A DNA stretch of 64,000 nt from Prosthecomicrobium pneumaticum (GCF_014199915.1 NZ_JACHOO010000002.1:1-64000), one strand, 5' to 3'. Positions 305 to 38,872 are shown, numbered from the stretch's first letter. Numbers and translations are program-made. Notes: generated by a model not told the origin, from the letters alone.

Positions 305-1528
305 TCACGCCGCGGCGAACTTCATGAGCTTGATCGCCTCGAAGTCCTGCACCCCGCCGCCGACCCGCTTGGTGGTGTAGAAGAGCACGTAGGGCTTCGC
401 CGAATAGGGGTCGCGCAGCACCCGCACGCCGGTCCGGTCGACCACCAGATAGCCGCGGCGGAAGTCGCCGAAGGCGACCGAGAACGAGCCGGCGGCGATG
501 TCGGGCATGTCCTCCGCCTCGGCGACGGGAAAGTTGACGAGCGTCGCGGCGGCGCCGGGCGTCGACGGCGGCGCCCAGAGATAGGCGCCGTCCTCGTCCT
601 TGAACTTGCGGATCGCGCCCTGCGTCTTGCGGTTCATGACGAAATGCGCGTTCTGCCGGTAGCCGGCCTTGAGCGCATAGACGAGGTCGATCAGCCGGTC
701 GGACGGGTTCGCCGCCGCGAAGCCGCCCGTGACGCCGGTGGCGAGATAGCCGAGCTTGTCCCAGCTCCAGGCCGCATCGGCGACCGTGTCGTAGTCGAGG
801 AAGCCGCGCGGCTTGTTCTCGCCGTCGCCGGCGACGAAGGCGGCCCCCTCCTGGAGGGCGAAGGCCGCCTCGACCTCGCCGGCGATCCACGCCTCGATGT
901 CGACGGCGGCGTCGTCGAGCAGGCCCGGCGTCGCCGCCGGCATGGCGTAGAGTTCCATGGTCGGGAAATCGAGCGCGGCGAGGGTCGGCGACCCGGTCTG
1001 CGCCCGCGCCGCCGTCTCGCCGACCCAGCCGACCGCCGGCCCGGCCGTCATGAAGGGCTTGCGGTAGGTCGAGCCCGACACCTGGCGCACATCGGCGATC
1101 GCGCGGATCGGCGACAGCGCGGCGAGCCGCTTGCCGATCTCGCGCTCGATCTCCACGGGCACCAGATAGCCGCCGTCCGGCGCCGAGCCGACCGACAGCG
1201 CCTTCGCCTCGATCCGCCGCAGCCCGTCCTCGGCGCCGGAGCGGACATAGCCCTCGAACGCGGTCTTGCGCTCGGAGGCCGCCGCGGCGCCGCGCTCACC
1301 GGGGGCGAGCGGCGGCCGCCGCGCCTTGAGGCTCAGCTCGTCGAGCGTCCGGTCGATCCGGGCGAGCTTCTCCTCGGTGACGACGTCGGCGGCGAGCTTC
1401 TCCTCGATCTCGGCGAGCCGGGCATCATTGGTCTCCTTGAAGCTCTCGAAGGCGCGCATGAAGTCGTCGAAGGCGCCGGCGATCTCGTCCGCACCCTTCT
1501 GCTCGGGCGCACCCGTCCGTTCGGTCAT
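305..1528 (-). CDS. Phage/GTA major capsid protein (HK97 fold)
   Basis: This is a 407-aa HK97-type major capsid protein that would form the head shell of a phage or gene transfer agent. The first ~75 residues are charged and helical (scaffold-like delta domain). The capsid domain runs from about residue 115 to the end and contains the conserved stretch ending in a YLVVDRTGVRVLRDPYS-like segment. The ATG at 1528 is preceded by AAAGGA and fits the family length; a longer open frame upstream runs only through repeat DNA. In RcGTA-like clusters this gene follows portal and protease, as here, but 673 bp of repeats separate it from the protease. Family call is firm; GTA rather than prophage is inferred from gene order. 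Confidence 0.93.
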   Translation of the reverse strand: MTERTGAPEQKGADEIAGAFDDFMRAFESFKETNDARLAEIEEKLAADVVTEEKLARIDRTLDELSLKARRPPLAPGERGAAAASERKTAFEGYVRSGAEDGLRRIEAKALSVGSAPDGGYLVPVEIEREIGKRLAALSPIRAIADVRQVSGSTYRKPFMTAGPAVGWVGETAARAQTGSPTLAALDFPTMELYAMPAATPGLLDDAAVDIEAWIAGEVEAAFALQEGAAFVAGDGENKPRGFLDYDTVADAAWSWDKLGYLATGVTGGFAAANPSDRLIDLVYALKAGYRQNAHFVMNRKTQGAIRKFKDEDGAYLWAPPSTPGAAATLVNFPVAEAEDMPDIAAGSFSVAFGDFRRGYLVVDRTGVRVLRDPYSAKPYVLFYTTKRVGGGVQDFEAIKLMKFAAA

Positions 1529-2201
1529 GCTGATGTCCTTTCGGTGGAAGTCCGTTGAATCGAGAGAGGCAGGAGGCGGTTCGACGAGCCGCGCACCGGG
1601 GTGCGAGAAGGCGCCATCGAGGCCGCCCAAGGCCGAGACCGTCGGCGCCGGAGAGCACCATCGCCTCCCCGGAACACCCGTCACCCCGGCCTCCGTGCCG
1701 GGGTCCATCATCGTGCCGTCCGGCCGCCCGAGCACCGCCGCCACCCCGCGCACCCGTCATCCCGGGCGAGGCGAAGCCGAGACCCGGGATCCATCAAGCC
1801 GAGCATGCATCAGGGCGGCGCGGCCACGCCAACCGTCACGATTATGGATGCCGGCACGGAGGCCGGCATGACGGGTGGAGGGGGCCGTTCGAAAACCTTA
1901 CACGGGTGCGAGAAGGCGCCATCGCGGCCGCCCAAGGCCGAGACCGTCGGCGCCGGAGATCCCCCTCGCCTCCCCGGAACACCCGTCACCCCGGCCTCCG
2001 TGCCGGGGTCCATACTCGTGCCGCCGGGCCGCCCGAGCACCGCCGCCACCCCGCGCACCCGTCATCCCGGGCGAGGCGAAGCCGAGATCCGGGACCCATC
2101 GCGCAAAGCAGCCGGCGCACCCCGGAGCGGCCCTTCTCCCTCCGCCCTCGTGGGGGAGGGTCGGGGTGGGGGATGAACGGGCCGCGGCAGAAGCCCGCCC
2201 C
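1529..2201. repeat. Hairpin-repeat block between protease and capsid genes
   Basis: No gene is seen. About 195 bp is directly repeated at 1601-1795 and 1906-2100 (offset 305 bp). Each copy contains the CCCCGGC/GCCGGGG hairpin and the CCCGGG-flanked hairpin. Between the copies lies a hairpin of the ATGCCGGC/GCCGGCAT form, and the block ends in a C-rich/G-rich arm (~2126-2172). Such DNA between protease and capsid genes is unusual, because these genes are normally nearly adjacent. Confidence 0.75.
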
Positions 2202-2747
2202 TCACGCCGTCCGGGGCGCGAGCCGGCGGGCGGCGCGGCGCAGGTCCGCGGCGAGGCCGGCATCGGCCTTCACAGCGGCGACGCGGGCCTCCGGCAGCAT
2301 GGGGAAGGTGACGACCGAGATCTCCCACAGATCGATGGTGACGAGCCGGCGCGTGCCGGTTCCCCGGTCGCGCTCGGCCTTCACGGTGCGGAAGCCGATC
2401 GACAGCCCGTCGAGCGCGCCGGCCCGCATCAGCGCGCGCACCTCGCGCGCCTTCGCCACCTCGGCGGCGAGCCGGCCCTTGACGAACAGGCCGCGGGCAT
2501 CCTCGTGGATGTCGAGCCAGGTGCCGATCGGCAGCGCCGGATCGTGCTGGAACAGCATGCGGATGCCGCCCGCCCCCTTCGCCGCAAGCGCGGCGCGGAA
2601 GGCGCCGGGCATGACGACGTCGCCCGACAGGTCGCGCCGGCCGAACAGCGTCGCATAGCCCGAAAACGTCCCCTCGACGTCGATCGCCGACAGATCGGCG
2701 CGCGCATCCTTCCGCTCGCCCGCGGCGAGCGCCGAACCCTTGTCCAT
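2202..2747 (-). CDS. HK97-family prohead protease
   Basis: A 181-aa prohead serine protease (peptidase U35/S78 type) that matures the capsid during head assembly. Visible family features are the FSGYATLFG segment, the FQHDP segment carrying the catalytic His, the LDGLSIGFR segment with the catalytic Ser, and the LWEISVVTFPM segment. Its length is normal. The start at 2747 (ATGGACAAGG) is chosen because everything further upstream in frame is repeat sequence. It sits between the small head genes and the capsid gene, the standard RcGTA position. Confidence 0.93.
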   Translation of the reverse strand: MDKGSALAAGERKDARADLSAIDVEGTFSGYATLFGRRDLSGDVVMPGAFRAALAAKGAGGIRMLFQHDPALPIGTWLDIHEDARGLFVKGRLAAEVAKAREVRALMRAGALDGLSIGFRTVKAERDRGTGTRRLVTIDLWEISVVTFPMLPEARVAAVKADAGLAADLRRAARRLAPRTA

Positions 2748-3947
2748 GACTGCTCCGAACTGTGCGGGCCTTCGCCCGAAAAAGATCGATCGGCCGATGA
2801 AGGCCACCCCCCGAGCGGCCGGCCCACCCCCGATCGGCCCACTCCCTCCCCCTTGTGGGGGAGGGTCGGGGTGGGGGGTGAATACGCCGAGGCCGGCGGG
2901 GCGGCTCGCGGACACAGAGCGCCCTCACCTACCCGAGCACCCGTCACCCCGGCCTCCGTGCCGGGGTCCATAATCGTGCCGTCCGGCCGCCCGAGCATCG
3001 CCGCCACCCCGCGCACCCGTCATCCCGGGCGAGGCGTAGCCGAGACCCGGGACCCATCGCGCGGCGCCCGGGCTCGGTCCCATTGGGGCGGCCGTAGCGC
3101 GGCGTGATGGGTCCCGGCTTCCGCCGGGATGACGGATGGGGAGGACCGTTCTCACAGCACGCACGTCACGATTATGGACCCCGGCACGGAGGCCGGCATG
3201 ACGGGTGGAGGGGATCGTTCAGAACCCGGTCGATCGCGTGCCCCCGAACGCCATCGAAGCCGCTCAAGGACGAGACCGTCAGAGCCCGAGAGCACCATCG
3301 GGCTCCGGAACACCCGTCACCCCGGCCTCCGTGCCGGGGTCCATAATCGGGACGCCGGGCCGCCCGAGCGCCACCGCCATCCCACACCGTCATCCCGGGC
3401 GAGGCGTAGCCGGGACCCGGAATCCATCGAGCGGCGCCCGGGCTGGGTCCCATTGGGGCGGCCGTCGCGCGACATGATGGGTCCCGGCTTCCGCCGGGAT
3501 GACGATGGGGAGAACCGTTCTCACAGCACGCACGTCACGATTATGGATGCCGGCACGGAGGCCGGCATGACGGGTGGAGGGGATCGTCCAGAACCCGGTC
3601 GATCGCGTGCCCCCGAACGCCATCGAAGCCGCTCGAGGACGAGACCGTCAGAGCCCGAGAGCACCATCGGGCTCCGGAACACCCGTCACCCCGGCCTCCG
3701 TGCCGGGGTCCATCATCGTGCCACCGGGCCGCCCGAGCACCGCCGCCACCCCCCGCACCCGTCATCCCGGGCGAGGCGTAGCCGAGACCCGGGACCCATC
3801 GCGCAGAGCAGTCGGCGCACCCCGGAGCGGCCCGTTCTCCCTCCCCCACAAGGGGGGAGGGAAACCGCTCTCTCGTATCGCCGCCCGTCCAAGACCGCCG
3901 TCCAAGACCGCCCGTCCAGAACCGCCGATCCAGGGCCGCGCCGCCCC
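2748..3947. repeat. 1.2-kb hairpin-repeat block with two ~370-bp tandem units
   Basis: No gene is recognised. A composite unit starting near 3107 recurs at 3477 (offset exactly 370 bp). Each unit contains, in order, a GGGTCCCGG/CCGGGA hairpin, a GCCGGC hairpin, a segment beginning CAGAACCCGGTCGATCGCG, an inverted GCCGGGG hairpin and a CCCGGG hairpin. The same unit occurs twice more at 5820-6460. C-rich/G-rich arms lie at ~2842-2880 and ~3836-3852. Confidence 0.75.
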
Positions 3948-4052
3948 TCACCCCGCCCCGATCAGCCGGGCGATCAGGCCCGCGAAGTCGCGGAAGACCG
4001 GCCGGTGATCGGCCCGGTCGCGCTTCAGAATCCGGTTCACCCCCTGCCACAT
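3948..4052 (-). CDS. Putative 34-aa GTA micro-protein
   Basis: A short open frame of 34 codons that I believe is a real gene. It starts 20 nt after the stop of the upstream small head gene and has a good ribosome-binding site (GGAGG seven bases before ATG). It ends just before the repeat block begins. The peptide starts MWQGVNRILK and carries a charged centre (RDRADHRPVFRDF) followed by an amphipathic helix (LIARLIGAG). I do not recognise a family. Its position between the portal-proximal small gene and the protease suggests a minor head or assembly peptide. The evidence is spacing, RBS and amino-acid composition only. Confidence 0.5.
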   Translation of the reverse strand: MWQGVNRILKRDRADHRPVFRDFAGLIARLIGAG

Positions 4053-4072
4053 TCCCCTGCCTCCGGAGTCGG

Positions 4073-4258
4073 TTAGCGACGATCCCTGAAAAGCTGATTC
4101 AAGCGCGCGATCTCGGCGACGAAGTCGTTGAAGCGCCGGTTCGAGCGGATGAGCTCGCGCACCGCGACGAGGGCGAGGCCGCTCGCGCTCGAGGCCCAGA
4201 GGAAGAGCGCGAGATGGGCGAGGTCGCCGCGTCGCGCGAAGATCTCGGTGAGCGTCAT
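4073..4258 (-). CDS. Small GTA head-region membrane-like protein (g3.5 position)
   Basis: A 61-aa protein encoded 46 nt downstream of the portal gene. Residues ~14-35 form a hydrophobic helix (LAHLALFLWASSASGLALVA) followed by a basic, asparagine-rich helical tail ending LFRDRR. In RcGTA-like clusters a short gene (orfg3.5) occupies this place between portal and protease. I infer positional equivalence, not sequence identity. ATG at 4258 is the only sensible start. No enzymatic motif is visible. Confidence 0.7.
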   Translation of the reverse strand: MTLTEIFARRGDLAHLALFLWASSASGLALVAVRELIRSNRRFNDFVAEIARLNQLFRDRR

Positions 4259-4304
4259 GGTCCTGCCTCCTCGCCCCCGCCCCGATCCGAATGTCGCAAG
4301 AGCC

Positions 4305-5462
4305 TCAGCCGCGCGGCCCGTAGCCGACGGCGGCGCGCTTCTCGTCGTCCGACAGGAAGCCGGCGCGCTCGACCCGCCGCCACAGCGCCTCGCGCTCGGC
4401 CGACAGCGCCTCGATGCCGTCGGCGTCGAAGGCGAGCCGCAGCGCCCCGCCATAGGCGGGCGCCAGCCACTGGCCGAGCGCCGCCGCGGTGCGGCCGACG
4501 AGCGGCAGCACGGTCTGGCGCCAGAAGGCGCGGTTCGCCTCGGCATAGTTCGCATAGGTCGCGTCGCCCGGAATGCCGAGCAGCATCGGCGGCACGCCGA
4601 AGGCGAGCGCGATCTCGCGCGCCGCGCCGTTCTTCGCCTCCTGAAAGTCCATGTCGCGCGGGCTCATCGCCATCGCGGTCCAGTCGAGCCCGCCCTCGAG
4701 GAGCAGCGGCCGGCCGGCATTCGCCTGGCCCTGGAAGCCCGCCTCGAGCTCGGCCTTCAGCCGCTCGAACTGGTCGCGCGAGAGCGCCGCGCCGCCCTCG
4801 GCGCGATAGACGAGCGCGCCCGACGGCCGGGCCGAATTGTCGAGCAGCGCCTTGTTCCAGGCACCGGCGGCGTTGTGGATGTCGAGCGCGGTCGCCGCCG
4901 CCTCGATCGGCGCGAAGCCGTAATGATCGTCGAGCGGATGGAAGAGTGCGAGATGCAGGATCGGCTCCGGCACGCCCTCCATGGCGAAGCGCACGGTGCG
5001 CGCCCCGACCGTATAGTCGAACGCCTCCGGCCAGCCCTCCGGCCCGGCGACGACCTTCATCCGGTCGGGCCGCAGCGCGTGCAGTTCCGCCGGCCGGCCG
5101 TCGAGCGCCACCGCCTCGGCATAGGCGTTGCCGGCGACGAGCAGATGGCCATAGAGCGCCTCGAGGAACACCGCCCCGCTCTGTCGCCGGTTCGGCCGGG
5201 CGAGGAGGTCGAGCAGCGGATGCGCCGCCACCTCGTCCTCGCCGTCATAGAGGAGCAGCGGCACCGCGGCCGCGCTCTCGGCGACGAGCCGCACGGCGCG
5301 ATAGACGACGGCGTTCTTGAGGAACCCCTCGCGCGCCAGCGCCGCGACGTCGCGCGCCGTCCACACCGCCCGGCCCTCGAAGCCGAACGCGACCAGCGGC
5401 GCGGTCGCCGAGGCTTTCCGCTCGCGCGCCGCGAACACCCGCCGCCAGAAAGGCTGCGCCAT
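4305..5462 (-). CDS. Phage/GTA portal protein (HK97 family)
   Basis: A 385-aa portal protein, the dodecameric ring at the head vertex through which DNA is packaged. Characteristic segments are NAVVYRAVRLVAESAAAVPL near the N-terminus, GNAYAEAV, the YTVG-containing middle region, and AFGVPPMLLGIPGDATYANY followed by AFWRQTVLPL near the C-terminus. Its length matches the HK97/RcGTA g3 type. The ATG at 5462 is followed by a clear start of homologous sequence. The gene lies 1.1 kb downstream of the terminase; in compact GTA clusters the two are adjacent, and here the gap is repeat DNA. Confidence 0.95.
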   Translation of the reverse strand: MAQPFWRRVFAARERKASATAPLVAFGFEGRAVWTARDVAALAREGFLKNAVVYRAVRLVAESAAAVPLLLYDGEDEVAAHPLLDLLARPNRRQSGAVFLEALYGHLLVAGNAYAEAVALDGRPAELHALRPDRMKVVAGPEGWPEAFDYTVGARTVRFAMEGVPEPILHLALFHPLDDHYGFAPIEAAATALDIHNAAGAWNKALLDNSARPSGALVYRAEGGAALSRDQFERLKAELEAGFQGQANAGRPLLLEGGLDWTAMAMSPRDMDFQEAKNGAAREIALAFGVPPMLLGIPGDATYANYAEANRAFWRQTVLPLVGRTAAALGQWLAPAYGGALRLAFDADGIEALSAEREALWRRVERAGFLSDDEKRAAVGYGPRG

Positions 5463-6597
5463 GCCATCCTCCGATTTTTCGCGAGGCCGCTACCGATCCC
5501 GCAGAGCAACCATCCCGCCCCGGTCGGCGCCCCTCCGACCCGGAGCGGCCCCTTCTCCCTCCCCCCTCGTGGGGGAGGGCCGGGGGTGGGGGGTGAATGG
5601 GCCGAAGCCAGCGGGGCGGCTCGCGGACGCAGAGCGCCCTCGCCTCCCCCAAAGCACCCGTCACCCCGGCCTCCGTGCCGGGGTCCATAATCGGGACGCC
5701 GGGCGAGCGCGCGACGCCGCCGCCCCGCACCGTCATCCCGGGCGAGGCGTAGCCGAGACCCGGGACCCATCGCGCAGCGCCCGGGCTCGGTCCGATCGGG
5801 GCGGCCGTCGCGCGGCGTGACGGGTCCCGGCTTCCGCCGGGATGACGGATGGGGAGGACCGTTCTCACAGCACGCACGTCACGATTATGGATGCCGGCAC
5901 GGAGGCCGGCATGACGGGTGGAGAGGATCGTCCAGAACCCGGTCGATCGCGTGCCCCCGAACGCCATCGAAGCCGCCCAAGGACGAGACCGTCAGAGACC
6001 GAGAGCACCATCGGGCTCCGGAACACCCGTCACCCCGGCCTCCGTGCCGGGGTCCATAATCGTGCCACCGGGCCGCCCGAGCACCGCCGCCGCCCCCCGC
6101 ACCCGTCGTCCCGGGCGAGGCGTAGCCGAGACCCGGGACTCATCGCGCAGCGCCCGGGCTCGGTCCGATCGGGGCGGCCGTAGCGCGGCGTGATGGGTCC
6201 CGGCTTCCGCCGGGATGACGGATGGGGAGAACCGTTCTCACAGCACGCACGTCACGATTATGGACCCCGGCACGGAGGCCGGCATGACGGGTGGAGGGGA
6301 TCGTTCAGAACCCGGTCGATCGCGTGCCCCCGAACGCCATCGAAGCCGCTCAAGGACGAGACCGTCAGAGCCCGAGAGCACCATCGGGCTCCGGAACACC
6401 CGTCACCCCGGCCTCCGTGCCGGGGTCCATACTCGTGACGCCGGGCGAGCGCGCGACGCCGCCACCCCCTCTCCCGCCGGCGAAGTCGGCTGTTGCCGAC
6501 TTCGCCTCTTCCCCACCCGGCTCGGCAACAGCCGAGCCGGGTGGGGAAGAGGGTAGGGTGAGGGCCTTCCCCTGCCCGGCCCGCAAAAACCGCCCCC
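5463..6597. repeat. 1.1-kb hairpin-repeat block between terminase and portal genes
   Basis: No gene is seen. Two further copies of the ~370-bp composite unit lie here, anchored at 5820 and 6193 (offset 373 bp), with the same internal hairpins as at 3107 and 3477. A C-rich/G-rich arm is at ~5552-5597. The block ends next to the terminase stop in two strong hairpins described separately. Confidence 0.75.
6479..6552. other. Two consecutive strong hairpins downstream of terL
   Basis: Hairpin 1 has a 12-bp perfect stem (6479-6490 with 6495-6506, loop TGTT). Hairpin 2 has a perfect stem of about 22 bp (6505-6526 with 6531-6552, loop AACA). They lie 46-119 nt beyond the large-terminase stop codon. 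No T-run follows on the minus strand, so this is not a standard intrinsic terminator. It could attenuate transcription or protect mRNA between terminase and portal genes. Confidence 0.8.
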
Positions 6598-7914
6598 TCA
6601 CAAGACCCGCACCCGCGGCCCGCTTCCCGTGCGCAGCATCAGCACGGTGAGCGCCCAGACGAGCGCGTCGAGCCGGTCCGGCGAGCGGCCGTTCGACAGC
6701 CCGTCCGGGCCGAAATCGGCCATCTCGTCCTCGAGCGCGGCGAACCGGCCGGCGTGCCGCACCCGGCCCTGCGCATAGAGCGCGGCGACCGGTTCGGCGC
6801 GCAGATACTTGCCCCGCGTCGCGCGGACCGGCGTCACCGGCACGTCCGGATCGACATTGCCGATCACGCTCGCCACCATGTCGCCGCCCTGGTTCACCTC
6901 GGCGACGAGCGCATCGGCCGAGAGCGCGCGGTAGAGCCCGATCGCCGCCGCCGCCCAGCGGTCCGGCCGCGCTTCGGAGACGCTCGCATCGGCGAGCACA
7001 TAGCCCGCCCCGCCGGCGGTGACGCCGCAGGCGACGATGCCGCAGGAATCCGCCCCGCGCCGGCCCGAGGCCGGCGGGTCGACGGCGACGACGATGCGGG
7101 CGAGCGGCGGCGCCCCGCCGACGCGCAGCGCCTCGATCGCCGCGCGCGAGAACAGCGCGTCCGCCCGGTCCTCGATCAGCTCGCCGTCGAGCTCCTGCCG
7201 GCCGAGCCGCGTCCCGGCATAACGGCCGACGACGCGCTCGAGGAAGCCCGGCGCCAGATGGGCGAGGTTCGCCCGCGTCGCGGCGCGGGTCACCGCGGTG
7301 CGCTCCATCGCGACGAGCTTCCTGACGAGCGGCGTCGCCCGCGGCGTCGTGGTGATCACCTGGCGCGGCAGCGATCCGAGCCGCAGGCCGAATTGCAGCA
7401 TGTCGAAGCTCTCCTCCTGATGCCGCCATTTGCCGAGCTCGTCGGCCCAGGCGGCGTCGAATTGCGGCCCGCGCAAACTCTCCGGGTCCTCCGACGAGAA
7501 CATCAGCGCCACCGCGCCGTTGTCCCATTCGAGCCGCCGGCGCGACGGCTGGAAGCGCGGCCGCGTCGCCGCCGGGGCGATCGCGAGCAGGCCCGACGGA
7601 CCCTCGACCATCACCTCGCGGACATCGGCCATCGTCTCCCCGACGAGCGCGATCCGGCCGCACGGGCGCTCGGTCCAGCCCGGCCGGCCCTCGACGAGGG
7701 CGCGCACCCATTCGGCGCCGGCCCGCGTCTTGCCCGCGCCGCGGCCGCCGAGCATCAGCCAGGTCAGCCAGTCGCCCTCCGGCGGCAGCTGGTCGTCGCG
7801 CGCCCAGAAATCCCAGTCGGCGGCGAACCGCGCGAGCTCCGCCTCCGACAGCGCGGCGATCGCCGCCGCCGGGTCGCGGCCCTCAGCCGATGAGTTTCGA
7901 AAGGCGGTCCGCAA
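6598..7914 (-). CDS. Phage/GTA large terminase subunit (TerL)
   Basis: The DNA-packaging motor: an N-terminal ATPase and a C-terminal RNase H-like nuclease. The Walker A motif is GGRGAGKT, followed by RAGAEWVR. The coupling motif TTTPRATP is present. Nuclease acidic residues appear in VAVDPPAS, in the AEVNQGGD segment, and in the C-terminal DALVWALT segment. I chose the TTG at 7914 (438 aa), which overlaps the TerS gene end by 32 nt and gives the usual ~55 residues before Walker A. An ATG at 7977 would give 459 aa but a 95-nt overlap. The gene appears intact. Confidence 0.9.
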   Translation of the reverse strand: MRTAFRNSSAEGRDPAAAIAALSEAELARFAADWDFWARDDQLPPEGDWLTWLMLGGRGAGKTRAGAEWVRALVEGRPGWTERPCGRIALVGETMADVREVMVEGPSGLLAIAPAATRPRFQPSRRRLEWDNGAVALMFSSEDPESLRGPQFDAAWADELGKWRHQEESFDMLQFGLRLGSLPRQVITTTPRATPLVRKLVAMERTAVTRAATRANLAHLAPGFLERVVGRYAGTRLGRQELDGELIEDRADALFSRAAIEALRVGGAPPLARIVVAVDPPASGRRGADSCGIVACGVTAGGAGYVLADASVSEARPDRWAAAAIGLYRALSADALVAEVNQGGDMVASVIGNVDPDVPVTPVRATRGKYLRAEPVAALYAQGRVRHAGRFAALEDEMADFGPDGLSNGRSPDRLDALVWALTVLMLRTGSGPRVRVL

Positions 7915-8467
7915 TCTCCGCGCGGAGCCGGTCGCGATCGCCGGCGTCACCGCCCGCGCCTTCGGCAGTTCGATCATCCGGATCCCCCGCCGCGGCCTCG
8001 CCCGTCCGCCCGCCGCGGCGCGGCGCCTCGCGCGCCGCCCGGTCGAGCGCGATCAGCGTCTCGAAGGTCTTTGCGAGCGCGCCGAGCATCTTGACGCCCG
8101 GCTCGTCGAGCGCGGCGCCGGCGCCCTCGCCGAAGCGCGCCTCGAGGGCCGCGATCTGCCGCTCGAACGCGGTGATCATCCGCCTGACGATGCGCACCCG
8201 CCGCGTCTCGCGCCGCTGGCTCCTCGGCCGCACCGGCACGCTCCGTTCGGTCGCCCGCGTCACATGCACCCGCGCCGTCCGCCGCCAGCCCTTGGTGCGG
8301 GCGTGATAGCCGACGGTCGAATGCTGGATGCGGAAGCGGTCGGCGATGACATAGATCGACACGCCGTCGCGATAGAGCGTCTCCATCGCGGCGAGGTCGT
8401 CGCCCGAAAGCTTCCGCCGCGCCACCCCCTCCCCCATCCGCCCCTCCGCCTCCTGCCGCCCCGACAC
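7883..8467 (-). CDS. Putative GTA small terminase subunit (TerS, g1-like)
   Basis: A 194-aa protein just upstream of, and overlapping, TerL. Residues ~20-65 form a helix-turn-helix (LSGDDLAAMETLYRDGVSIY, then HSTVGYHARTKGW), the expected DNA-recognition domain of a small terminase. The middle is a long helix (RMITAFERQIAALEARF, ALAKTFETLIALDRAAREAP) suited to ring oligomerisation. The C-terminus is acidic and disordered before RLSKLIG. The start at 8467 is GTG; an ATG at 8437 is an alternative. The assignment rests on position and architecture, and the family is poorly conserved in sequence. Confidence 0.75.
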   Translation of the reverse strand: MSGRQEAEGRMGEGVARRKLSGDDLAAMETLYRDGVSIYVIADRFRIQHSTVGYHARTKGWRRTARVHVTRATERSVPVRPRSQRRETRRVRIVRRMITAFERQIAALEARFGEGAGAALDEPGVKMLGALAKTFETLIALDRAAREAPRRGGRTGEAAAGDPDDRTAEGAGGDAGDRDRLRAEIADRLSKLIG

Positions 8468-8934: not shown

Positions 8935-10260
8935 GGCCTTCATGTACGGAAGGCCGGTTCAATCCACATGGCTGTCACCCCGGCGAGGCGAAGCCGGAAC
9001 GCCCAAACAGCCGACTGAAACCCCGATCGGCCCTTCTCCCTCCCCCCGTGTGGGGGAGGGTCGGGGTGGGGGATGAATACATCGAGCCGAAGGCTCGCCG
9101 CCAGCCCGCACACCCGTCACCCCGGCCTCCGTGCCGGGGTCCATACCCCTGCCGCCGGGCGACGACACGCCGCCGCAGCCCCACACGGTCAGGAGCCCGC
9201 AGACGGGTGGGAAGGACCGTCCCCGGAACACCAACCCGCACGATTATGGATGCCGGCACAGAGGCCGGCATGACGGCTGGACGGGGCCGTTCGAGGCACG
9301 CGCCCCCCGACAATTCCAGGATCGGCCCTTCTCCCTCCCCCCGTGTGGGGGAGGGTCGGGGTGGGGGGTGAATACACCGAAGCCGAAGCCCGCCACCAAT
9401 CCAGAACACCCGTCACCCCGGCCTCCGTGCCGGGGTCCATACCCGTGCCGCCGGGCGACGACGCGCCGCCGCAGCGCCACACGGTCAGGAGGCCCGCAGA
9501 CGGGCGGGAAAGACCGTCCCGGACCGCCCAACCCGCACGATTATGGATGCCGGCACAGAGGCCGGCATGACGGGTGGTGGGGACTGTTCGAGGCACACGC
9601 CCCCCGACAATTCCAGGATCGGCCCTTCTCCCTCCCCCCGTGTGGGGGAGGGTGGGGGTGGGGGGTGAATGGGCCGAAGCCGGAGGCTCGCCACCAGCCC
9701 GCACGCCCGTCACCCCGGCCTCCGTGCCGGGGTCCATACCCGTGCCGCCGGGCGAAGACGCCTGCCACCGCCCCATACGGTCAGGAGGTCCGCAGACGGG
9801 TGGGAAGGACCGTCCCCGGAACACCAACCCGCACGATTATGGATGCCGGCACAGAGGCCGGCATGACGGGTGGTGGGGACTGTTCGAGGCACGCGCCCCC
9901 CGACAATTCCAGGATCGGCCCTTCTCCCTCCCCCCTTGTGGGGGAGGGTCGGGGTGGGGGGTGATTACGCCGAAGCCGAAGCCGGCATCACCTCCCCAGA
10001 GCACCCGTCACCCCGGCCTCCGTGCCGGGGTCCATACCCGTGCCGCCGGGCGACGACGCGCCGCCGCAGCGCCACACGGTCAGGAGCCCGCAGACGGGTG
10101 GGAAGGACCGTCCCCGGAACACCAACCCGCACGATTATGGATGCCGGCACAGAGGCCGGCATGACGGCTGGACGGGGCTGTTCGAAGACCTCACGCCCGA
10201 CGACCGAGGATCGGCCCACTCCCTCCCCCCTTGTGGGGGAGGGTCGGGGTGGGGGGTGAA
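8935..10260. repeat. Tandem array of ~297-bp composite hairpin units
   Basis: A higher-order direct repeat. The anchor GATTATGGATGCCGGCACAG recurs at 9242, 9539, 9835 and 10133 (offsets 297, 296 and 298 bp), with a partial unit on the left. Each unit carries a C-rich/G-rich arm, an inverted GCCGGGG hairpin, a spacer containing CACACGGTCAGGAG (or a near variant) and an ATGCCGGC/GCCGGCAT hairpin. Open frames through it are periodic translations of the repeat and are not taken as genes. Confidence 0.85.
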
Positions 10261-10264
10261 TACA

Positions 10265-10324
10265 CCGAAGCCGAAGCCGAAGCCGAAGCCGAAGCCGAAG
10301 CCGAAGCCGAAGCCGAAGCCGAAG
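10265..10324. repeat. (CCGAAG)10 microsatellite
   Basis: Ten perfect copies of the hexamer CCGAAG, followed by a run of CCG triplets (~10332-10352). Other units of the neighbouring array carry only two copies of the hexamer at the equivalent place (~9378 and ~9969), so this is a local expansion at the right end of the array. No gene with a credible start reads through it. The 10265-10492 stretch otherwise holds a T-rich segment (~10410-10420) that may belong to the promoter of the next gene. Confidence 0.9.
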
Positions 10325-10492
10325 CCCGCATCACCGCCGCCGCCGCCGCCGCCCGAAGCGCAACTATCCGACGATGCCACAACCCTACCGAAACACCGTC
10401 ACGCAGTCAAGGTTTTTTTTCCTATCCTTTATCGTTGCAAACTGACACCCGATCTGCATCCATAGTTGCGGGACCCACGCATCCGGGGGACT

Positions 10493-27810: not shown

Positions 27811-28668
27811 TCAATCGGCCCTGGGGCGGTAATCCTCGGCGCCCCAGTGACGGATTGGCGCGCCCGCACCGCCGCGGGCCGTCGCTGCGAGACCGTAGTG
27901 GCGGGCGAGTGCGGCGAGCGCCAGACGCAGGACGAGCTTGCCCGAGCGGCGCGGCCAGTCCTGCGTCAGTTCGACCTCCTCGATCCCGCGCAGGAAGCAG
28001 CAGACGTCGAGGAGCACGCCGGCGAGCTCCGGGCCGACCGCGGCGAGCGCCCGATCGACGCGCAACCGGGCGGCCAGCGCGGCATCGGCGATGTCGGCCA
28101 TGCCGCCCGAATCACCCGAACGTCGCCCTTGCGCAACGGTCGCGCCCCAGTTCGCCGTCACCCGCGGCATCATCTGGCCGCGGGTGAAATCGGCCCTCAG
28201 TCGCTCGCCGGCGGCGAAGGCCGCCTCGTCGATCAGCGGCTTGCCGGCCTTGTCGCTGCGGCTGCGCAACCAGGCGATCGGGCTCTCGGCGACATTGACG
28301 AGGACCGGCCGCACGCCGGCCCCCTCGTCGAGCGGCAGCACGCGTGTGTCGCGGTGCTGCGCGGCGAAATCGCCGCCCGCGAGCGCACGCCGCAAGGCCG
28401 ACGCACCCGCGGAGGAGAGCGCCAGGCCGCCCTCCTCCATCGGCGCGACGAGGCCGGCGCTCCGCAGCCGGGCGACGGCGGCCGGGTCCGCCATCCCCTC
28501 CTCCCCCGCGGCGACGAGCCGCCAGCCGCCATCCGGCCCTTCGAGGAGACGGGCACCGGCGGCACCGAGACGACGGAGCAGCCGCAGGGCCGGACGTCCA
28601 ACGGCCGCCGAGCGCGCGGCCCCGGCCCCGCGACGAGGAGATACGGCGGGACGATTCTTTTCTTCCAT
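27811..28668 (-). CDS. DUF6456 domain protein (putative DNA-binding)
   Basis: A 285-aa protein of the DUF6456 type. The N-terminal ~110 residues include RPALRLLRRLGAAGARLLE and VARLRSAGLVA, reading like a winged helix. The C-terminal domain has SPIAWLRSRSDKAGKPLIDE, AGERLRADFTRGQMMPRVTA, NWGATV, and DVCCFLRGIEEVE with GLAATAR near the end. ATG at 28668 is preceded by AGGGAGCC. It faces a divergent small gene of a family often found next to it in alphaproteobacteria. A regulatory role is inferred only. Confidence 0.8.
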   Translation of the reverse strand: MEEKNRPAVSPRRGAGAARSAAVGRPALRLLRRLGAAGARLLEGPDGGWRLVAAGEEGMADPAAVARLRSAGLVAPMEEGGLALSSAGASALRRALAGGDFAAQHRDTRVLPLDEGAGVRPVLVNVAESPIAWLRSRSDKAGKPLIDEAAFAAGERLRADFTRGQMMPRVTANWGATVAQGRRSGDSGGMADIADAALAARLRVDRALAAVGPELAGVLLDVCCFLRGIEEVELTQDWPRRSGKLVLRLALAALARHYGLAATARGGAGAPIRHWGAEDYRPRAD

Positions 28669-28768
28669 TCCGGGCTCCCTTCGATCTAGGATTATTTTCC
28701 TAACACGGGTCTTGCCGGCGGAGCAATCGGCGATTGCGTCGTCCGGCGGCCGAACGGGAGGTTCAGCG

Positions 28769-29167
28769 ATGACGGACGGAATGGCGACGGCGCGGCGGGA
28801 GGATGTGACGGGGGATGCGGCGGCGCGAATCGGCTGGCGGCAGCGGGCCGAGGCTGCGCTCGGCACGACGCTGGCCGCGGGGAGAATGGCCTATTGTCGT
28901 GAGAAGACCTTGCCGCGGCTGCTCCCGATCGGGCCGCGCGAACTCGCCGAACAGGGTCCGGAGGCGGACCGGCGCATCGTCGCCCGGCTCGCCCGCGCCC
29001 TGCGGGCCGAGCGCAATCGCGGCCGGGCGGGGCACTGGACCTACGACCTCAACCGCCACATCGCGCTGCACCAGGCCTATCTGGCCGAACGGGCGCGGCT
29101 CGGCGGGCTCAGGGGCGTGGCGGGGGCAAGGGCGGGATCGCCTCCGCCCGCCGGGACGGCGCGTTGA
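28769..29167 (+). CDS. Small conserved protein, DUF6477-like
   Basis: A 132-aa protein. A central segment (KTLPRLLPIGPRELAEQGPE, IVARLARALRAERNRGRAGH, WTYDLNRHIALHQAYLAERA) resembles DUF6477 proteins, which often neighbour DUF6456 genes as here. The first ~25 and last ~20 residues look disordered. ATG at 28769 follows GGGAGGTTCAGCG. Its last 59 nt overlap the end of the convergent secreted-protein gene. Family assignment is tentative; function is unknown. Confidence 0.65.
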   Translation: MTDGMATARREDVTGDAAARIGWRQRAEAALGTTLAAGRMAYCREKTLPRLLPIGPRELAEQGPEADRRIVARLARALRAERNRGRAGHWTYDLNRHIALHQAYLAERARLGGLRGVAGARAGSPPPAGTAR

Positions 29168-38072: not shown

Positions 38073-38320
38073 GGGCGATCCCGGGTTGGAGAGGGCCGAA
38101 GGACGCCGGTCCTCCTCGAGGTCGCCCCTTCGGAATCCGGCCCCGCCATTGAAACGAAGCTTCAGGGTGCGATCAACCGAAACCGGACGCCGCATAGCCC
38201 GCAATCCCGCAACCGGAGGCTCTGCGCGCTCACGAACCGGTCACGATGGCGTCATCGCGGCGTCTGTCTGCCACCGGGCGTGCGGCGGTCGGGGGAGGAC
38301 GATGGCGGGCACAGCGCGCG
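38073..38320. promoter_or_regulatory. Divergent upstream region of the antiporter operon
   Basis: About 250 bp between the MnhE start and the repeat block. I see no gene and no clear sigma70 promoter in it. It must contain the operon promoter unless transcription starts within the repeats or within the extended MnhE frame. Confidence 0.3.
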
Positions 38321-38730
38321 CCCTACCCCCTCTCCCGCCCTGCGGGAGAGGGCCGGGGTGAGGGTGCGCTACGCCGCGAATCGTCCGGTCGGAAGGAAGC
38401 GAAGGCCCTCACCCTGCCCTCTCCCGCGTCGCGGGAGAGGGGATGCCCGGCCGGTGTGCCCCGTCAAATCGCCGCCGAGGACTCGCGAGCCACGCGGGAC
38501 CAAGGGAGCGCCCTTCCCCCTCTCCCGCCTCGCGGGAGAGGGCCGGGGTGAGGGTGCGCTACGCCGCGCATCGGCCGTTCGGAAGGAAGCGAAGGCCCTC
38601 ACCCAACCCTCTCCCGCGTCGCGGGAGAGGGGATGCCCGGCCGGTTTGCCCCGTCAAATCGGCGCCGAGGACTCGCGCGCCATGCAGGACCGAGGGAGCG
38701 CCCTTCCCCCTCTCCCGCCAAGCGGGAGAG
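38321..38730. repeat. 190-bp tandem repeat (2.2 copies) with nested palindromes
   Basis: A 190-bp unit at 38321-38510 is repeated at 38511-38700, with a partial third copy to ~38730. Each unit begins with a CTCTCCCGC/GCGGGAGAG palindrome and a G-rich arm, contains a second such palindrome in inverted order, and a spacer including GGAAGGAAGCGAAGGCCCTC. The elements belong to the family seen at 27.7 and 53.4 kb. The block lies between divergent genes; 38731-38872 has no recognised feature. Confidence 0.88.
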
Positions 38731-38872
38731 GGGATGACCGGCCGATGCGCAATGAGTGGGGAGCGAGGAGCCGGGACCGCGCCGCCTTGAACCCGCCCCG
38801 CTCTCAAGGCAAGGAAGGTTCATCCCGCCGGGCGCCTCGCCGTCCCGCCCTCCTTTTGCCGGAGCCGCCGCC

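Follow-up and report, generated by a model that had tools for sequence, protein, structure and literature searches.

How can an operon in which every gene remains intact carry long, hairpin-forming repeats between its genes? The question is raised by a gene transfer agent (GTA) cluster at the start of contig C2 (NZ_JACHOO010000002.1) of Prosthecomicrobium pneumaticum; the window analyzed comprises bases 1-64000 of this contig. GTAs are phages that bacteria have domesticated and that carry DNA from cell to cell. Operons are usually compact, and arrays of repetitive extragenic palindromic (REP) sequences usually lie after gene ends. In this cluster, the genes are intact, repeat blocks occupy seven of the 17 gene junctions, the repeats are enriched relative to the genome, and the blocks of different junctions are related to each other. 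It is considered reasonably probable that the operon is under selection but seldom expressed, that a GafA/GafZ-type anti-terminated polymerase reads it, and that REP arrays have spread in those of its junctions that permit them.

The six head genes that a first-pass annotation of this DNA had proposed are present at positions 305-8467; each has an open frame and lies on the minus strand. The genes gp1 (7883-8467) and gp2 (6598-7977) encode a terminase small subunit-like protein (TerS) and the terminase large subunit (TerL), respectively. The gp1 product matches phrog_1206 (E 1.5e-6) and shows 29-39% identity to the product of the same-place gene in relatives, and the gp2 product matches PF03237 and PF17289. 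These two genes overlap at 7883-7977; the first repeat block comes after gp2, and none comes after gp1. This first block (gp2/gp3, 5463-6597, 1135 bp) is a period-373 array (Tandem Repeats Finder [TRF] 5655-6468, 92% match). The genes gp3 (4305-5462) and gp3.5 (4073-4258) encode the portal protein (PF04860, E 6e-92) and a gp3.5-like small protein of 61 aa with 66-78% identity to the products of same-place genes in relatives. The next block (gp3.5/gp4, 2748-4072) is a period-369 array (TRF 2938-3801, 91% match); it measures 1325 bp, against the approximately 1.2 kb given earlier, whereas the presence of repeat blocks between the genes is borne out by the arrays and by the core counts described below. 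The prohead protease gene gp4 (2202-2747; PF04586, E 3e-33; TIGR01543) is separated by a block of 673 bp (gp4/gp5, 1529-2201), with two cores at 1685 and 1990, from the intact gene gp5 (305-1528), which encodes an HK97-type major capsid protein (TIGR01554, E 3.6e-118; PF05065, E 1.2e-90). The best capsid matches reach 71-72% in viral contigs and 64-65% in phage records.

The first base of C2 falls inside a further block (gp5/gp6, 1-304), so the DNA further left sits on other contigs. The genes gp6-gp12 were found on contig C19 (7.2 kb) and gp13-gp15 on contig C18 (8.9 kb), where the GTA_TIM domain of gp15 was located by domain search. Degenerate GTA genes were sought in this part, and all of gp6-gp15 proved to be intact. 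The ends of C18 and C19 have 95 identical bases in common at gp12/gp13, and the block truncated by the end of C2 resumes on C19, with an 81-bp overlap containing one mismatch between the two contig ends at gp5/gp6. As both joins are located within repeats we infer them, and conserved gene order backs them. The reconstructed cluster would be approximately 21.0 kb long and contain approximately 6 kb of repeats (about 28%), in blocks at gp2/gp3, gp3.5/gp4, gp4/gp5, gp5/gp6, gp8/gp9, gp10.1/gp11 and gp12/gp13. Junctions with overlapping or near-touching genes carry no blocks, and the repeats break no gene. From its syntenic gp1-gp15 head-tail genes, akin to those of other alphaproteobacterial GTAs, the cluster is assigned to the RcGTA-like type, which agrees with the gene order first proposed and is confirmed by the domain matches. 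Contigs that end inside repeats and a cluster split over three contigs are also what collapsed or mis-joined repeats would produce. An assembly artefact of this kind is nevertheless extremely improbable: five of the blocks (gp2/gp3, gp3.5/gp4 and gp4/gp5 on C2, and gp8/gp9 and gp10.1/gp11 on C19) lie between unique, correctly ordered genes of one contig and have junction-specific linkers, and the uncertainty is confined to unit numbers and the two joins. The ends of four small contigs (C21-C24; L084-L087) consist of N. In the gp8/gp9 junction of C19 (L082, about 2010-2830), a stretch of lower GC with an apparent antisense open reading frame (ORF) of approximately 240-270 aa, a possible cargo gene, was seen by eye.

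The repeats are built around a 24-nt core, CCCGGCCTCCGTGCCGGGGTCCAT, with CGTCA directly before it. The unit has the layout A-B-B'-A'. The outer arms A and A' are reverse complements of each other, and B' is similar to the reverse complement of B. The whole is a nested palindrome of approximately 255 nt with the potential to form a single extended hairpin, and its copies follow one another head to tail, joined by a local linker. For the unit at 5655-6030, the sense RNA is predicted to adopt one long hairpin with this nested structure (-240 kcal/mol; z -7.6 versus dinucleotide shuffles); the folding z ranges from -5.1 to -11.0 for five more units from five blocks and from -0.5 to -3.3 for three gene segments. 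Members of the CGTC REP superfamily have a terminal CGTC tag, an 8-9-bp stem, a 4-5-nt loop and a CCA tail, and clusters of these REPs have been described as rare (Di Nocera et al. 2013, PMC3733652). In the present core, the tag (CGTCA) and tail (TCCA) match CGTC REPs, whereas the arms CCCCGGC and GCCGGGG form a stem of approximately 7 bp around a loop of approximately 6 nt (ctccgt), as paired by eye without a fit to the published consensus. No match to the RAYT-type transposase PF01797 (Y1) was found in the genome, and REPs driven by a RAYT and a RAYT-REPIN system were rejected on this ground. The unit is accordingly read as a nested REP composite of the known CGTC superfamily, with which its tag and tail, its alphaproteobacterial host, its placement and the lack of a transposase agree.

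The distribution of the repeats was surveyed in sampled stretches of the genome, which has a size of 4.65 Mb. The core has 138 genome copies at up to two mismatches, and a reversed control has none. The family is genome-wide, which gives no support to the idea that the repeats are special to the GTA operon. The GTA cluster (21 kb, 0.45% of the genome) holds 15 of the 138 cores and seven of the at least about 45 blocks, which were counted from exact cores among the matches listed, grouped with the C19 cores. The Poisson probability of this enrichment is 4e-16 for cores and 2e-9 for blocks; the block figure is preferable because units are non-independent, and local copying inflates it also. Among the matches listed, other 21-kb stretches carry at most two blocks each, as judged by eye. 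Of 34 other blocks that could be classed with gene calls from a simple codon model made for this analysis, 18 lie between codirectional, 15 between convergent and one between divergent genes, versus 182, 39 and 40 background junctions, respectively. Intergenic location after gene ends, rarely between divergent genes, is also the placement of CGTC REPs. The orientation of the core relative to the genes is constant throughout the GTA cluster, for which local copying is a sufficient explanation.

Such copying between junctions is visible in the blocks themselves. The gp2/gp3 and gp3.5/gp4 blocks are 91% identical over 936 bp, the gp8/gp9 and gp10.1/gp11 blocks are 86% identical over 740 bp, and the gp12/gp13 block shows 90-95% identity to the gp10.1/gp11 block; the GTA junction blocks are thus 86-95% alike, whereas the best matches of most non-GTA blocks reach 65-80%. 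In a maximum likelihood tree of 67 units from the GTA cluster and elsewhere in the genome, nearly every array outside the cluster forms a private clade, as expected under concerted evolution. Units of the gp2/gp3, gp3.5/gp4 and gp5/gp6 blocks interleave within one clade (98/87), those of gp8/gp9 and gp10.1/gp11 interleave within another (100/97), and the gp4/gp5 unit stands apart from the other GTA units. The junction label changes three times in the tree versus 9.5 times in shuffles, and none of 500 shuffles gave a number that low. This interleaving of units from different GTA junctions indicates that repeats were copied between junctions. The simplest reading of the tree is at least three founding events followed by several junction-to-junction copies, for which recombination between REPs or their gene conversion is the probable mechanism.

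The nearest genomes available for comparison were those of Kaistia and relatives. When eight to 15 genes were compared with those of each of four relatives, most differences fell at the third codon position and dN/dS (ratio of nonsynonymous to synonymous divergence; Nei-Gojobori method, NG86) was below 1 throughout, with synonymous sites close to saturation for several genes. Long-term purifying selection on the GTA proteins, which had been suggested at the outset, is therefore supported by the coding sequences, and the GTA genes are conserved among relatives. A cluster released from selection and filling with repeats before its loss would also bear a heavy repeat load. The portal gene is in pieces in G006 (same family) and in G035 and G045 (same order), and several family members have no portal match; a broken or missing portal is taken as GTA decay or loss. 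The blocks may also postdate the period for which these comparisons register selection. In P. pneumaticum, however, gp1-gp15 are all open and of normal length, with dN/dS below 1 where compared, the activator homologue described below is intact, and the repeats break no gene, which makes decay of this cluster quite improbable.

The earlier assumption that such clusters are normally compact does not hold for these relatives. The junctions of Kaistia-family relatives are also wide, with medians of 2366 bp (gp2/gp3), 571 bp (gp3.5/gp4), 314 bp (gp5/gp6) and 555 bp (gp8/gp9), and contain extra ORFs or other repeats. The junctions blocked in P. pneumaticum are those with wider gaps in these relatives (Mann-Whitney p 0.008). 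Repeats of unrelated sequence recur at the gp5/gp6 junction, which follows the capsid gene, in most Kaistia-family relatives. Tandem repeats of approximately 142 bp are present behind the capsid gene in Kaistia G011 and G008 (L072 and L068); the G011 motif is confined to the GTA cluster, and its size and copy number (four copies) are near those of Caulobacter terGTA, a terminator described below. In Kaistia G024, REPs are present at gp5/gp6, at gp13/gp14 and beside both cluster ends (6 of 101 copies counted). When a generic REP pattern was searched in 16 family genomes, G024 and G026 were the only ones with copies in the GTA cluster, among the loci examined, and recurrence of a generic REP motif in the family is thus weak. 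Several Kaistia species (L065, L069-L071, L073 and L075) have in common an insert of approximately 2.4 kb in the gp2/gp3 gap, with a sense ORF of approximately 260-300 aa and an antisense ORF of approximately 385-445 aa.

According to the explanation favored here, genome-wide CGTC-type REP composites would have colonized non-overlapping gene junctions of a complete, selected RcGTA-like cluster. A few founding insertions may have grown by tandem duplication, and the resulting arrays may then have been copied among neighboring junctions. Three circumstances could account for their tolerance. Each block would lie between genes without need for translational coupling, the operon would be silent in most cells, and a GafA/GafZ-type anti-terminated polymerase would read through the hairpins and the long untranslated stretches. 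It is through this polymerase that the operon may survive untranslated hairpin blocks of more than 1 kb. A gene for a GafA-type regulator is present and intact outside the cluster (27811-28866, minus strand); it encodes a DUF6456 protein, likely a GafA homologue (C-terminal part, GafZ-like), with PF20057 at C2:27892-28299 (E 2.6e-49 to 1e-48). GafZ is the counterpart of the C-terminal part of GafA, and GafA homologues are annotated as DUF6456 (PMC9638019).

Several points weigh against this explanation. Anti-termination is established for Caulobacter GafZ (PMC11150451) and would extend to the DUF6456 protein by analogy. The dN/dS values span the long divergence from Kaistia and not the period after block gain, and all relatives compared belong to other genera, which limits any reading of block age and fixation. 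A junction tandem array was found in only eight of 92 other Hyphomicrobiales GTA loci and such arrays were no denser than in the flanks (eight in 1.08 Mb versus 11 in 0.67 Mb of flank by TRF); GTA operons in general are thus no repeat sinks. The GTA excess of REPs in G024 is modest when counted by site. In 80 viral-collection loci, TRF found two arrays with a period of at least 40 in 0.88 Mb, and tandem arrays as a general feature of GTA clusters were rejected on both sets of loci. In the viral collection, the GTA-like contig L245 has a 171 bp x 2.8 array (264-736) at the start of a frame running into TerL, and L239 has a 95 bp x 2.8 array (6243-6518) directly after the capsid gene.

The blocks might instead act on transcription. 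In Caulobacter crescentus, the first GTA gene is followed by terGTA, a strong terminator made up of three GC-rich direct repeats of 150 bp that carry imperfect inverted repeats; GafZ lets part of the polymerase past it, although transcription is still about 8-fold reduced (PMC11150451). By analogy, the present blocks could be functional terminators or attenuators that keep a lethal cluster off without its activator, and partial read-through with GafA/GafZ could grade expression. This precedent, the tandem, GC-rich and strongly folding nature of the blocks, the GafA-type gene in the genome and the unrelated repeats at gp5/gp6 in relatives, including the GTA-private 142-bp array of G011, all favor such a role. 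However, a scan of 10.4 kb found no intrinsic terminator (stem and T-run), with 3.9 expected by chance. The block sense strand has C at 0.31-0.37 and G at 0.35-0.44, and with no excess of C over G it makes no evident Rho target. Polymerase coming from the presumed promoter would meet three blocks before it reached the capsid gene, whose product is required in the highest copy number; a succession of seven strong terminators would shut off the tail genes; and the same repeats follow ordinary genes genome-wide. No repeat has a terGTA-type location directly after the first cluster gene, as gp1 and gp2 overlap. A scan for sigma-70 promoters found none in the blocks, but is poorly suited to this organism. 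A terminator role is possible but rather unlikely, and less likely than tolerance with local spread. Attenuation as a means to set head-protein ratios, as first proposed, is a hypothesis that sits badly with the gene order; the lack of an intrinsic terminator in the scan, the three blocks that precede the capsid gene and the absence of a special tie between the repeats and the GTA speak against it. It also appears improbable that the operon recruited a genome-wide REP family as serial terminators that spread by local copying, which would leave only an anti-terminated polymerase able to read the entire cluster; if true, selfish repeats would have supplied a lethal operon with a lock of several gates.

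Repeats are also present elsewhere in the window. A related array with a period of approximately 296 (TRF 9025-10276) and a perfect hexanucleotide run at its end, (CCGAAG)10 (10.3 copies; TRF 10265-10326), occupy 8935-10326 beyond the gene divergent from gp1, upstream of the cluster, in its flank and outside it. A second repeat family, with periods of about 190 and 101, was observed at 38318-38744 (CCCTCTCCCGC...).

An operon under long-term purifying selection that bears approximately 28% repeat DNA in seven junctions without gene loss lets one ask, in a natural setting, to what extent an operon with special transcription tolerates or uses non-coding clutter. With GTA anti-termination in Caulobacter, it raises the question of whether anti-terminated operons escape the usual limit on untranslated hairpin-rich intergenic DNA or gate with it. 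It is also a clear example of array copying among neighboring junctions in a repeat family without a known transposase. No paper linking GTA clusters with REP arrays was found in the literature searched. The components are of known kinds; as far as found in that literature, neither such a density of REP arrays within a single selected operon nor the copying of arrays from junction to junction has been described.

Three known systems can be compared with this locus. The cluster resembles the RcGTA-like head-tail cluster (Rhodobacter capsulatus type) in its gp1-gp15 order, GTA_TIM in gp15, gp10-type tail protein, DUF2460 gp12, NlpC/P60 gp14 and GafA homologue; it differs in its length of approximately 21 kb versus 14 kb for the Caulobacter cluster, its approximately 6 kb of repeats and the extra antisense ORF in gp8/gp9. 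The repeats share with CGTC-tagged REPs (PMC3733652) the CGTC/CCA ends, GC-rich stem, opposite-orientation dimers, alphaproteobacterial host, intergenic location between codirectional and convergent gene pairs, and lack of a dedicated transposase, whereas nested double dimers in arrays of about 300-400-bp units, with seven blocks in a single operon, are particular to the present case. By description, the blocks are like terGTA of C. crescentus (PMC11150451): both are GC-rich, consist of direct repeats in tandem that contain inverted repeats, and lie between RcGTA-type genes of a genome with a GafA/GafZ-type gene. However, terGTA is a single array after the first gene, whereas the REP sequence of the seven P. 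pneumaticum blocks occurs genome-wide, gp1 is not followed by a block, and terminator activity is putative.

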